A stretch of DNA of 64,000 bases from Leisingera aquaemixtae. Lineage in GTDB: Bacteria; Pseudomonadota; Alphaproteobacteria; Rhodobacterales; Rhodobacteraceae. Positions 40,833 through 44,487 of the stretch are shown one piece after another; within the stretch, counting starts at the first letter, position 1, and the number at the start of each line of letters is the position of its first letter. The notes beneath the pieces were generated by a model that had not been told where the DNA came from, did no database searches, and saw only the letters and a list, made by a program, of their open reading frames with translations. The position numbers and the translations under genes were made by a program. The DNA lies in contig NZ_CYSR01000040.1 of the NCBI RefSeq assembly GCF_001458395.1, positions 124,001-188,000 on the forward strand, read 5' to 3'.

Positions 40833-41393
40833 TTAGTTTCCGCGCAGCAGCGCGGCGACTCCGGTGCGGGCAATCTCGGCCAGGCCAAGCGGCCGCATGA
40901 GTTCGGCAAAGGCATCGATCTTGTCCGGCGCGCCGGTGATTTCAAAAACGAAACTGTTCAGCGTGCTGTCGACAACATTGGCGCGGAAGATATCCGCCAG
41001 CCGCAGCGCTTCGACCCGCTTGTCGCCGTCGCCCGCCACTTTCAGGATCGCCAGTTCCCGTTCCACCGCGACGCCTTCGACCGTCAGGTCGTGCACATCG
41101 CGGACTGAAACGATGCGGCCCAGCTGCGCCTTGATCTGCTCAATCACCTGCGGGGTGCCGGTGGTGACGATGGTAATCCGCGACAGATGGCCGGTGTGGT
41201 CCACTTCGGCCACGGTCAGGCTTTCAATGTTGTAGCCGCGGCCCGAGAACAAGCCGATGACACGGGCCAGAACCCCGGGTTCGTTTTCCACCAGCACCGC
41301 AATGGTGTGGCGTTCCTGCACGTCCGAAAACGTCGGGCGCAGGTTGTAGGCGGAATGGCGGGTGGAGCCTTTTTTGATATGCAGGGCAGACAT
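40833..41393 (-). CDS. ilvN: Acetolactate synthase small (regulatory) subunit
   Basis: The 186-residue subunit activates acetolactate synthase and confers valine feedback inhibition. An ACT domain spans about residues 28-100 (HTIAVLVENEPGVLARVIGLF, GYNIESLTVAEVDH, SRITIVTTG), and the C-terminal domain ends LAEIARTGVAALLRGN. The ATG at 41393 has GAGAGGAAG upstream. It lies 85 bases downstream of ilvB on the same strand; two hairpins fill the spacer. It belongs to the attenuated ilvBN operon. Confidence 0.96.
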   Translation of the reverse strand: MSALHIKKGSTRHSAYNLRPTFSDVQERHTIAVLVENEPGVLARVIGLFSGRGYNIESLTVAEVDHTGHLSRITIVTTGTPQVIEQIKAQLGRIVSVRDVHDLTVEGVAVERELAILKVAGDGDKRVEALRLADIFRANVVDSTLNSFVFEITGAPDKIDAFAELMRPLGLAEIARTGVAALLRGN

Positions 41394-41478: not shown

Positions 41479-43230
41479 TTACACCAGCACTGCGCCGCCG
41501 GCCTGGATGACGCCCTGGGTCTCGGCTTCGCCCAGCAGCATCTCGTTATGCGCCTTGCCCGAGGGGATCATCGGGAAGCAGTTCTCGTGCTTCTCGACCA
41601 GGCAGTCGAAGATCACCGGCCCGTCGTAGTCGATCATTTCCATGATCGCATCATCCAGATCGGCGGGATCGCTGATGCAGATGCCCTTGCAGCCGAAGGC
41701 CTCGGCGAGCTTCACGAAATCGGGCAGCGCCTCGGACCAGCTGTGGCTGTAGCGCTCGCCGTGCAGCAGTTCCTGCCACTGGCGCACCATGCCCAGGCGC
41801 TCGTTGTTCAGGATGAACTGTTTCACCGGCAGGCGGAACTGCACTGCGGTGCCCATCTCCTGCATGTTCATCAGCCACGATGCCTCGCCCGCGACGTTGA
41901 TCACCAGCGCCTCCGGATGCGCCATCTGCGCACCGATCGAGGCCGGGAAGCCATAGCCCATGGTGCCGAGGCCGCCGGAAGTCATCCAGCGGTTCGGGTC
42001 CTCAAAGCCCAGGTACTGGGCCGCCCACATCTGGTGCTGGCCGACCTCGGTGGTGACATAGCGGTCGCGGCCCTTGGTCAGCGCCTCAAGGCGCTGCAGC
42101 GCGTATTGCGGCTTGATGGTCTTTTCCGAGTTCTTGAACGACAGGCAGTTCACCGCGCGCCATTCGTCGATCTGCTTTTGCCATTTGGCCAGCGCCTCGC
42201 GGTTCACCTTGCGGCCGCGCGATTTCCAGACCTTCAGGATGTCTTCCAGCACATGGGCGACGTCGCCGACAATCGGGATATCGACCCGGATCACCTTGTT
42301 GATCGAGGAGGGGTCGATGTCGATATGCGCCTTTTTCGATTTCGGGCTGAAGGCGTCGATGCGGCCGGTGATCCGGTCGTCGAACCGGGCGCCGATGTTG
42401 ATCATCAGGTCGCAGCCGTGCATCGCCATGTTGGCCTCGTACAGCCCGTGCATTCCCAGCATGCCCAGCCAGTTCTTGCCGGACGCAGGGTAGGCGCCCA
42501 GGCCCATCAGGGTCGAGGTGACCGGAATGCCGGTGCCGTCCACCAGCTCGCGCAGCAGCTGGCTGGCCGCGGTGCCGGAGTTGATGACGCCGCCGCCGGT
42601 ATAGAACACCGGGCGCTTGGCCTTTTCGATGGCCTCGACCAGCTCGGTGATCGCCTCCATGTCGCCTTTGACCTGCGGCTGGTAATGCGAGGCCGAGGGT
42701 TTCGGCCCTTGGTAGGTGCCGCTGGCGAATTGGACGTCCTTGGGAATGTCGACCAGAACCGGGCCGGGGCGGCCGGACTTGGCGACGTGGAAGGCCTCAT
42801 GCAGGGTGCGGGCCAGCGCGTCGGTATCCTTGACCAGCCAGTTGTGCTTGGTGCAGGGGCGGGTGATGCCCACGGTGTCGGCCTCCTGGAAGGCGTCGGA
42901 GCCGATCATGAAGGTCGGCACCTGGCCGGTCAGCACCACGATCGGGATCGAGTCCAAAAGCGCGTCGGTGAGGCCGGTGACCGCATTGGTGGCACCGGGG
43001 CCGGAAGTCACCAGAACCACGCCGGGTTTGCCGGTGGAGCGGGCATAGCCTTCCGCCGCGTGGACCGCGCCCTGTTCGTGACGGACCAGAACGTGGCGGA
43101 TGTCATTTTGCAGAAAGATCTCGTCATAGATCGGCAGCACGGCGCCGCCAGGGTATCCGAAGACCACATCCACCCCCTGATCCTTCAGGGCCTGAACAAC
43201 CATTTTCGCGCCGGTCATCTCACGTGTCAT
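41479..43230 (-). CDS. ilvB: Acetolactate synthase large (catalytic) subunit
   Basis: The 583-residue ThDP enzyme makes acetolactate or acetohydroxybutyrate, the first common step of valine, leucine and isoleucine synthesis. The N-terminal domain has GYPGGAVLPIYDE and the catalytic Glu in LVRHEQGAVHAAEGYAR, then VTSGPGATNAVTGL; the C-terminal ThDP/Mg motif reads VAGEASWLMNMQEM, with GEA in place of the usual GDG. I chose the ATG at 43230, with GGAG ten bases upstream; an ATG at 43269 lies right after the attenuator T run. Expression is probably governed by the leader at 43270-43378. Confidence 0.96.
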   Translation of the reverse strand: MTREMTGAKMVVQALKDQGVDVVFGYPGGAVLPIYDEIFLQNDIRHVLVRHEQGAVHAAEGYARSTGKPGVVLVTSGPGATNAVTGLTDALLDSIPIVVLTGQVPTFMIGSDAFQEADTVGITRPCTKHNWLVKDTDALARTLHEAFHVAKSGRPGPVLVDIPKDVQFASGTYQGPKPSASHYQPQVKGDMEAITELVEAIEKAKRPVFYTGGGVINSGTAASQLLRELVDGTGIPVTSTLMGLGAYPASGKNWLGMLGMHGLYEANMAMHGCDLMINIGARFDDRITGRIDAFSPKSKKAHIDIDPSSINKVIRVDIPIVGDVAHVLEDILKVWKSRGRKVNREALAKWQKQIDEWRAVNCLSFKNSEKTIKPQYALQRLEALTKGRDRYVTTEVGQHQMWAAQYLGFEDPNRWMTSGGLGTMGYGFPASIGAQMAHPEALVINVAGEASWLMNMQEMGTAVQFRLPVKQFILNNERLGMVRQWQELLHGERYSHSWSEALPDFVKLAEAFGCKGICISDPADLDDAIMEMIDYDGPVIFDCLVEKHENCFPMIPSGKAHNEMLLGEAETQGVIQAGGAVLV

Positions 43231-43269
43231 CTGCTTTTTGCTCCAATTGGCGGCATCGTCATTACGCAT

Positions 43270-43299
43270 AAAAAAAGCCCCCGATTTCAAGTCGGAGGC
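43270..43299 (-). terminator. ilvBN attenuator (intrinsic terminator)
   Basis: On the minus strand, GCCTCCGA (43299-43292) pairs with TCGGGGGC (43284-43277, one G-U) around a 7-base loop, followed by a run of seven T residues. It lies between the leader peptide stop and the ilvB start, so it decides whether ilvBN is transcribed. Confidence 0.9.
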
Positions 43300-43340
43300 G
43301 CATGGGTTCGATTATGGTCAACCGTCACCGGCCCATGCGC
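43298..43340 (-). promoter_or_regulatory. ilvBN antiterminator pairing
   Basis: GCGCATGGG (43340-43332, inside the last leader codons) is a perfect complement of CCCATGCGC (43306-43298), whose end overlaps the 5' arm of the terminator by two bases. When the ribosome stalls at the upstream Leu/Val/Ile codons this pairing can form and disfavour the terminator; when it reads through to the stop it covers the first segment and the terminator forms. Confidence 0.75.
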
Positions 43341-43378
43341 TTGGTTCCTACGATTACGACTAGGGTGGTCACGTCCAC
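43325..43378 (-). CDS. ilvL: ilvBN leader peptide (attenuation control)
   Basis: A GTG start preceded by GAGGAG opens a 17-codon reading frame whose product reads MDVTTLVVIVGTKRMGR and ends in TGA. Five consecutive codons are for branched-chain residues (Leu-Val-Val-Ile-Val), preceded by Val and two Thr, exactly the amino acids made by the pathway it precedes. The run is placed just before the first antiterminator segment. The peptide itself need have no function; translation speed is the signal. The gene is far below usual length cut-offs, so it is easily missed. Confidence 0.85.
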   Translation of the reverse strand: MDVTTLVVIVGTKRMGR

Positions 43379-43404
43379 AGGCTCCTCATTGCGTTGCAGC
43401 GGAC

Positions 43405-43431
43405 ATTATGGGCGGCGGACAGGGGCGTCAA
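43405..43431 (-). promoter_or_regulatory. Promoter candidate for the ilvBN leader
   Basis: On the minus strand, TTGACG (43431-43426) and CATAAT (43410-43405) are 15 bases apart, short but with good hexamers. Transcription would start near 43398, about 20 bases before the leader GTG. A perfect TTGACA also occurs slightly upstream, near 43446. Confidence 0.45.
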
Positions 43432-43635: not shown

Positions 43636-44487
43636 ATGGTTCAACTCTCCGATCTGGTGGATCTCGGACGCTATCCCATCGACCGGCCCGGCTCCAGCGC
43701 CTGCGCCCGGCTGATCGCGGATCTGCAGCGCGATCTTGCAGCGGACGGCTGTGCGGTGCTGCCCGGGTTCGTGCATCAGGACGGCGTTGCCAGGCTGGTG
43801 GCGGAGGCCGATGCGGTGGCAGGCCAGGGGCACAGGTCCTTCAGCCGCACCAATCCCTATTTCTCCCAGGACGACAGCACCCTGCCGGAAACCCATCCGG
43901 TGCGGCAGTTTTTCGGCCGCTCCAACGCCTTTGTCCCTGCGGACAACTTTGGCCCGGACAGCCCGCTGCGCGCGATCTACGAGCACCCCGGATTCATGCC
44001 GTTTGTCCGCGAAGCGCTGGGAGAGCCGGAGGACCGGTTCTTCCGCTATGACGATCCGCTGGCCGATGTGATCATCAACATGGTCGAGGCGGGGCAGGGC
44101 TTCCCCTGGCATTTCGATACCAACAATTACACCGTGACGCTGGCGATCCAGAACGGCGAGAGCGGCGGCGCGTTCGAATACGTGCCAATGCTGCGCACCC
44201 CGGCGGATGAGAATTTCGAGGGCGTTGCGCGGGTGCTGGCGGGCGGCTCGCCGCTGCTGCGCAGGCTGGTGCTGCGGCCCGGCGACCTGCAGATCTTCCG
44301 GGGCCGCTATTCGTTGCACCGGGTGGCCCCGGTCGAGGGGGCGCGCAGGCGCTATGTCGGGATCTTCTCCTTTGTCGAGCAGGAGGGCATGTGCGGCGGG
44401 GTAGAGCGCACCCGGCAGCTTTATGGCAGGGTCCTGCCGCGCCATTACGAGCGTGAGGGACTGCGTGCCGACGCGCTGCGGGATTAA
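43636..44487 (+). CDS. Fe(II)/2-oxoglutarate-type oxygenase of the HalD/BesD-like family
   Basis: The 283-residue protein has the iron facial triad of 2-oxoglutarate oxygenases: H159-F-D161 in FPWHFDTNNYTVTLAIQ and a distal histidine H228 in FRGRYSLHRVAPV, followed by an Arg-rich strand (EGARRRYVGIFSF) that can bind 2-oxoglutarate. The NNYTVTLAIQ and GGAFEYVPMLR segments resemble BesD/HalD amino-acid halogenases. Those halogenases replace the Asp with Gly to bind chloride; here Asp is kept, so hydroxylation is more likely. The ATG at 43636 follows GGGAAGGAAG. It diverges from the ilvBN leader and is collinear with a glycosyltransferase-like gene 78 bp away. Confidence 0.8.
   Translation: MVQLSDLVDLGRYPIDRPGSSACARLIADLQRDLAADGCAVLPGFVHQDGVARLVAEADAVAGQGHRSFSRTNPYFSQDDSTLPETHPVRQFFGRSNAFVPADNFGPDSPLRAIYEHPGFMPFVREALGEPEDRFFRYDDPLADVIINMVEAGQGFPWHFDTNNYTVTLAIQNGESGGAFEYVPMLRTPADENFEGVARVLAGGSPLLRRLVLRPGDLQIFRGRYSLHRVAPVEGARRRYVGIFSFVEQEGMCGGVERTRQLYGRVLPRHYEREGLRADALRD

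Follow-up and report, generated by a model that had tools for sequence, protein, structure and literature searches.

Ribosome-mediated attenuators of the trp/ilv type combine a translated, codon-rich leader with an intrinsic terminator and an antiterminator that excludes it, and transcription reads through upon shortage. A leader peptide upstream of ilvB in Alphaproteobacteria has already been described (Vitreschak et al. 2004, as cited by Corbino et al. 2005, PMC1273637). It belongs to the same gene and class as the element described here and, as far as the citation tells, may be the very same element. The ilvBN operon of Caulobacter crescentus is subject to attenuation (Tarleton, Malakooti and Ely 1994, cited by Schrader et al. 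2014, PMC4117421), and its attenuator, which we liken to ours by its description, is of the same class and has Ile and Val codons in tandem together with a terminator. Some attenuators have been reported to 'hop' from gene to gene (Naville and Gautheret 2010, PMC2965389), and a leader-ORF motif has been described before cysS in Rhodobacterales (PMC8632094). The initial annotation of this locus, which stated that attenuation is established for branched-chain operons of other proteobacteria, was right and even understated the matter, as such control is in print, in the form cited above, for alphaproteobacterial ilvB itself. An attenuator function was expected and had been guessed rightly, and this type of switch for ilvBN is already known. 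What goes further is that near-identical leaders precede a transporter gene, and that there is a likeness to the Rfam RNA Atu_C8 (RF02502); the set of leaders is wider and odder than had been supposed. In the literature on Atu_C8 and on transporter leaders that was within reach, which includes two papers on Agrobacterium and few subscription papers, the link proposed below was not found, which is no proof of novelty.

The features of the locus, all on the reverse strand of the window (the whole analysed stretch of 64,000 nucleotides from Leisingera aquaemixtae), are collected in Table 1. The parts that the initial annotation assigned to an ilvBN attenuator are all present: a frame behind a GAGGAG site that opens with GTG 43378, reads MDVTTLVVIVGTKRMGR and ends in TGA (43327-43325); five consecutive branched-chain codons; a perfect 9-bp complement between GCGCATGGG and CCCATGCGC; a terminator stem with seven T before ilvB; and a 2-nt overlap of the antiterminator and terminator arms (43299-43298). 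The attenuator stands as the best reading, with a peptide that is most likely shorter and with helices that are predicted to compete only in part.

Table 1. Features of the ilvBN leader region, in coordinates of the window
Feature	Position	Strand	Basis and remarks
-35-like hexamer TTGACG	43426..43431	-	strand reading
-10-like hexamer TAATGT	43403..43408	-	17 nt from TTGACG; 3/6 match to TATAAT
Ribosome-binding site AGGAG	43382..43386	-	strand reading; 9 nt before GTG 43372, 3 nt before GTG 43378
Leader ORF MTTLVVIVGTKRMGR + TGA	43325..43372	-	start codon at homologous place in 64/72 sequences
Control codons CTA GTC GTA ATC GTA (Leu-Val-Val-Ile-Val)	43349..43363	-	I/L/V conservation in 66 leaders
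Long helix, 5' arm GCGCATGGG	43332..43340	-	folding and pair counts
Small hairpin CCG-GTGA-CGG, stop codon inside loop	43322..43331	-	pair counts; stem survey of ilvB leaders
Long helix, 3' arm CCCATGCGC	43298..43306	-	folding and pair counts; last 2 nt common to terminator
Terminator stem-loop	43277..43299	-	8 pairs (43299-43292/43284-43277), loop of 7
Seven-T run (U in RNA)	43270..43276	-	strand reading
ilvB, acetolactate synthase large subunit	41479..43230	-	NCBIfam NF006581 (acetolactate synthase 3 large subunit), 1139 bits, cut-off 974
ilvN, acetolactate synthase small subunit	40833..41393	-	Pfam PF10369 (ALS_ss_C) and ACT domains

Judged by the position of the promoter-like pair, the RNA would start near 43396. 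A simple pattern of TTGAC, a gap of 16 to 17 nt and a TAnnnT-like hexamer occurs in 68 of 80 upstream extracts (the window's own extract began one base late), and a consensus promoter scan of the window region did not list the TTGACG/TAATGT pair. The divergent neighbour on the forward strand (43636-44484), whose start lies about 200 nt from this pair, matches the Pfam family HalD (Halogenase D) with 45.1 bits at a cut-off of 26.

Between 43000 and 43700, one terminator-like site was found and 0.6 were expected, so the terminator by itself is not beyond chance. This would suit a plain upstream ORF followed by a terminator, with no switching, an idea that we find scarcely credible, as the codon class, the spacer and both helix arms are conserved. 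The element as a whole does exceed chance, because R1, a covariance model built from 66 ilvB leaders, recovers it in 245 of 295 genomes of the host's family, the Rhodobacteraceae (hereafter family genomes), and in 221 of the 260 that are of good quality. Plain DNA similarity recovers the stretch in 200 of the 295 genomes, and R1 finds the element in 102 of 111 genomes of another sample that is drawn entirely from the same family. The window's own genome holds a single copy (96.7 bits); the next match there, at 23.7 bits, sets the background of R1. Among 80 named genomes with a similar IlvB, three, all of Paracoccus, are without the leader, which was missing in each of the three Paracoccus loci fetched (L100, L101, L102), and one contig was too short (L061). 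The start of the window's IlvB is identical to that of two Leisingera proteins.

Start codons were counted in 80 extracts (the window and 79 relatives). A motif filter passed 72 of these and set eight aside, five with the element in a changed form and three from Paracoccus. The homologue of 43372, which lies 12 codons ahead of the ATG of RMG, is a start codon in 64 of the 72 sequences, as against 9 of 72 for the homologue of 43378. Because a start codon is conserved there and GGAG lies 9 nt away (the distance to the first GTG being 3 nt), the true start is most likely the second GTG, giving a predicted peptide MTTLVVIVGTKRMGR of 15 residues rather than 17. The 17-residue form, which starts with an extra MD and has V for the next GTG, was rejected on this conservation. 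The correction bears on a small peptide found in most members of a large family that is mainly marine.

The leader ORF is rich in codons for the amino acids of the pathway, as an attenuator requires, and its conservation suggests that it is translated. In the 66 ilvB leaders, 306 of the 330 codons at positions 4-8 stand for I, L or V, with varied synonyms, as against 10 of 198 in the three-codon spacer at positions 9-11; residue totals for these leaders are V 171, L 88 and I 71. Codons that are rare in the 36 ORFs of the window (CTA, 1.5% of Leu; GTA, 8.1% of Val) are frequent in the leaders, where CTA occupies position 4 in 28 of 66 and GTA position 8 in 36 of 66. Given the size of the ribosome footprint, the length of the spacer fits a stalled ribosome that just frees the 5' arm of the long helix.

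Counts of paired cells in 66 sequences support the long helix together with the stop-codon hairpin (97.5% of cells paired, with 0 of 500 shuffles as high, and four pairs with two-sided changes). The small hairpin accounts for most of the covariation signal; both arms of the long helix hardly vary, and two-sided changes occur there in only two cells. The intrinsic terminator, which lies between the leader and the first gene, covaries as well (0 of 500 shuffles as high on cells paired), and in one relative (L085) the base common to helix and terminator has changed together with both of its partners. The consensus stem of the stop-codon hairpin, CCG/CGG, is replaced in relatives by CGG/CCG (L065), TCG/CGA (L105), TCTC/GAGA (L088) and CCGG/CCGG (L110). 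A stem of at least three pairs surrounds the stop codon in 64 of 66 ilvB leaders and in 17 of 22 of the transporter leaders described below. The observed mean stop-stem was never reached when each sequence's own 3' side was shuffled (0 of 1000 in both leader sets), and was reached in 3 of 2000 trials for ilvB leaders and 134 of 2000 for transporter leaders when 3' sides were dealt among sequences. These comparisons argue well for the hairpin in ilvB leaders and modestly for it in transporter leaders. The 66 ilvB leaders end in TAA (51), TGA (14) or TAG (1), and the 36 ORFs of the window in TAA (10), TGA (18) or TAG (8). TAA and TGA each give the hairpin a GNRA loop; such a loop as a rule fails where the stop codon is TAG (for example L156, L170, L171, L268 and L275).

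The overlap of the two arms had been taken to make the choice between helix and terminator exclusive. That view was rejected, as in the predicted folds the two compete only in part, over the lowest pairs of the terminator. When the RNA is folded from the ribosome's edge to the last base of the stem, the window's two lowest terminator pairs are predicted at 0.47 and 0.65 with the 5' arm free, versus 0.98 and 1.00 with the arm covered. Of the 66 leaders, 57 have a lowest pair below 0.5 when the arm is free, and none has when it is covered. In the best predicted structure, 7 pairs of the helix and 8 of the terminator coexist. In full-length folds the terminator stays at 0.90 or above with the ribosome A site at the last Val codon, and its base falls to 0.04-0.12 with the A site at codons 4-7, a drop that we discount, as it comes largely from long-range pairing of the U run. 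We likewise set aside a long-range pairing between AGGAG and the 3' arm and U run of the terminator, because AGGAG can pair with CUUUU in any such leader and because the U run would still sit in the RNA-DNA hybrid. As the folds predict only partial competition, classical antitermination by competing helices is a plausible mechanism and nothing firmer.

The coexistence of helix and terminator in the best structure, the near-invariance of both arms and the covariation of the stop-codon hairpin would also suit a design in which the ribosome is sensed mainly by other means than base competition, with the helix and stop hairpin acting as a folded unit next to the terminator, on RNA polymerase or as a pause signal. 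The five Atu_C8-type leaders discussed below, in which helix and terminator do not compete, point the same way. We nevertheless regard this design as rather unlikely for the window's element, as in the host's family the arm overlaps the stem and weakens its base pairs in the great majority of leaders, L085 changes all partners of the shared base, and we know of no model for such an action here.

We return to the attenuator, which is the best reading because the peptide is conserved under synonymous change and because of the spacer, the promoter-like pair and the terminator; that the element is a ribosome-sensing transcription attenuator of ilvBN seems to us fairly likely. Transcription would begin at the position given above, and the 15-residue leader would be translated. 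With charged Leu-, Val- and Ile-tRNAs, the ribosome would reach the stop codon and cover the 5' arm, so that the terminator would fold fully and the RNA end near 43270. Under low charging, the ribosome would stall within the five control codons and, owing to the three-codon spacer, leave the 5' arm uncovered. The helix GCGCAUGGG/CCCAUGCGC, with the stop-codon hairpin as its cap, would then take the base of the terminator stem, and transcription would proceed into ilvBN.

Leaders closely resembling this one occur outside ilvBN. We took the 16 best R1 matches in a class sample of 385 genomes and examined the gene downstream. Five are in family genomes, all before ilvB. The other eleven are from other families (41.9-75.8 bits) and have no ilvB within their flanks; an MFS transporter gene lies 14-50 nt downstream of the leader in all eleven. 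Seven of these transporters were scanned, and TIGR00710 (Bcr/CflA efflux) was the best match for each, above its cut-off in five cases and just below it in two. Weaker loci in the class sample number 14 (L138-L151, 25.2-37.4 bits); for these the analysis covered the sequence and a tblastn comparison with IlvB. A search with one such transporter gave 17 places of at least 51% identity with loci, of which 12 have the leader (at least 24.6 bits with R1) and 5 do not, although this count is not an independent sample because R1 had already found 11 of the 12. One more place, at 50% identity, had no locus and is outside the count. Six remoter transporter paralogues, including that of the window's genome, gave no leader match. 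Twenty family genomes picked for weak or double matches contain 25 places, of which 19 are before ilvB, 5 before the transporter and 1 before neither, and both kinds of leader occur together in three family genomes. A weak second copy in genome G126 (L267, 40.2 bits) adjoins neither gene, has no leader ORF by our filter and is perhaps a relic.

Models built from either set of leaders alone recognize the other set. R2, for which only transporter leaders were used (19 of them), finds the element at 76 of the 79 family ilvB loci (34.4-86.0 bits; 72.3 bits for the window), and R1 gives 67-78 bits to the transporter leaders of three roseobacter plasmids. As a negative set we used 60 ilvB upstream regions of other families, chosen by hand from a listing. 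Their best scores are 19.3 bits with R1 and 25.3 bits with R2, and none of the 60 reaches any Rfam cut-off. The latter score belongs to a region of genome G529 (L216), in which ilvB is preceded by a different-looking leader, MNILINSLVNVVVVLLVEVRRA, and a terminator; it is perhaps a remote relative.

The transporter leaders, such as that of Roseobacter denitrificans pTB1 (L272), have the same core and an overlapping terminator, and most have the stop-codon hairpin. They differ from ilvB leaders in the gene that follows and in being rich in Val (V 74, I 12 and L 10 in 22 leaders); VVV occurs in 15 of the 22. A second small hairpin after their stop codon is weak (53.7% of cells paired, with 31 of 500 shuffles as high), and the long helix has no covariation beyond shuffles in 19 of them. 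On a tree of MFS proteins the presence of a leader needs 7 changes on 36 rows (7 of 43 rows were lost to the motif filter).

The name of the transporter, efflux, and the frequency of VVV raise the question whether the window's leader answers slowed translation generally, as caused for example by inhibitors, and not branched-chain supply in particular. We think this very unlikely for a leader whose downstream genes are ilvBN and whose control block encodes all three branched-chain amino acids; it probably senses branched-chain amino-acid supply.

Plasmids also carry the transporter gene. Eight of 26 plasmid records with it were opened, and the leader is present in five and absent in three. The five are from Leisingera caerulea, Phaeobacter piscinae, Roseobacter denitrificans, Rhizobium lusitanum and a betaproteobacterial Burkholderia. 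The L. caerulea plasmid, unnamed1 (L270), is conjugative, and the neighbours of its leader-bearing MFS gene are annotated as GNAT acetyltransferases and a chloramphenicol phosphotransferase family protein. On Agrobacterium tumefaciens plasmid pAt2 (L269), a leaderless relative of the MFS gene is preceded by a TPP riboswitch (2324-2440, 74.6 bits) and directly followed by a NUDIX gene.

The only Rfam family that overlaps the window's element is Atu_C8, at chance level (20.2 bits, E 1.3; curated cut-off 50), and when the whole genome was searched with Atu_C8, the element was absent from the matches with E up to 10. It is not filed under Atu_C8, and we speak of a likeness only. Atu_C8 matches the transporter leaders of R. 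lusitanum (111.5 bits) and L170 (98.8 bits), and in R. etli (96.9 bits) it precedes a gene annotated Bcr/CflA. Nine plasmid records hold at least 80% of the R. lusitanum leader, and their coordinates place the transporter just downstream in all nine; of 17 records matched by this leader, 12 were followed up by coordinates or opened. Atu_C8 also precedes ilvB in Sinorhizobium meliloti (121.1 bits, leader peptide MKNFAVILVVGRRMGRMV) and in Shinella (113.8 bits, MKNLTAIILVVGRRMGRVV). These occurrences before ilvBN make a simple hop of the leader, from the transporter to ilvB within the host's family, less likely.

Although filed as a 'Rhizobiales sRNA', Atu_C8 has the look of a leader that is related to the window's and serves ilvBN or the transporter; it has a peptide containing ...VVGRRMGR..., a helix GGCGCAUGGGC...CCCAUGCGC, a hairpin around the stop codon and a terminator that, unlike the window's, does not overlap the helix. 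Matches of our models in place on Atu_C8-type leaders (R1, 23.8-28.8 bits; R2, 16.6-26.8 bits) are hardly above the 23.7-bit background, and kinship therefore rests more on motif and layout than on score. Shared with the window's element are the motif GCGCATGGGC...CCCATGCGC, an RMGR-like peptide and the stop-codon hairpin, and the genes downstream are the same two. For five Atu_C8-type leaders, folding predicts a terminator that forms equally with the 5' arm free or covered; there the helix would not be an antiterminator by competition.

A likely relative that is filed as a small RNA, and the precedent of rnTrpL in Sinorhizobium, as far as we could consult its literature, might suggest that the terminated leader RNA is chiefly a trans-acting regulator. 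This is highly improbable as its main role, in view of its position directly before ilvB in the family and of a conserved frame that appears to be translated, and a role in trans and attenuation are not mutually exclusive.

A broader proposal can be made only tentatively, and we hold it to be possible rather than probable. The window's element would belong, as one branch, to an RNA family of Alphaproteobacteria that also takes in Atu_C8, leads ilvBN and a Bcr/CflA-type MFS gene in at least two orders, and senses the position of the ribosome by a junction around the stop codon more than by helix exclusion of the trp style. If so, the MFS transporter would not be a plain drug pump; it would have its place in the physiology of branched-chain amino acids (perhaps valine), or else slowed translation would induce it. 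The comparison suggests what the Rfam small RNA Atu_C8 is likely to be, namely the leader of ilvBN or of a transporter gene, and it connects a group of MFS proteins, at present called 'multidrug efflux' on grounds of similarity, with control by leaders rich in valine. It also raises the question of how the conserved helix acts where it does not overlap the terminator.

Two observations on records with Atu_C8 deserve mention. In Rhizobium etli pRetIE4803c (L305, about 2478-2600), the frame of an Atu_C8 leader before a transporter gene runs past the usual place of the stop codon. A record titled Sinorhizobium meliloti plasmid pSymB (CP090106.1, L304) is 3.7 Mb long and holds ilvBN, and may be a mislabelled chromosome.
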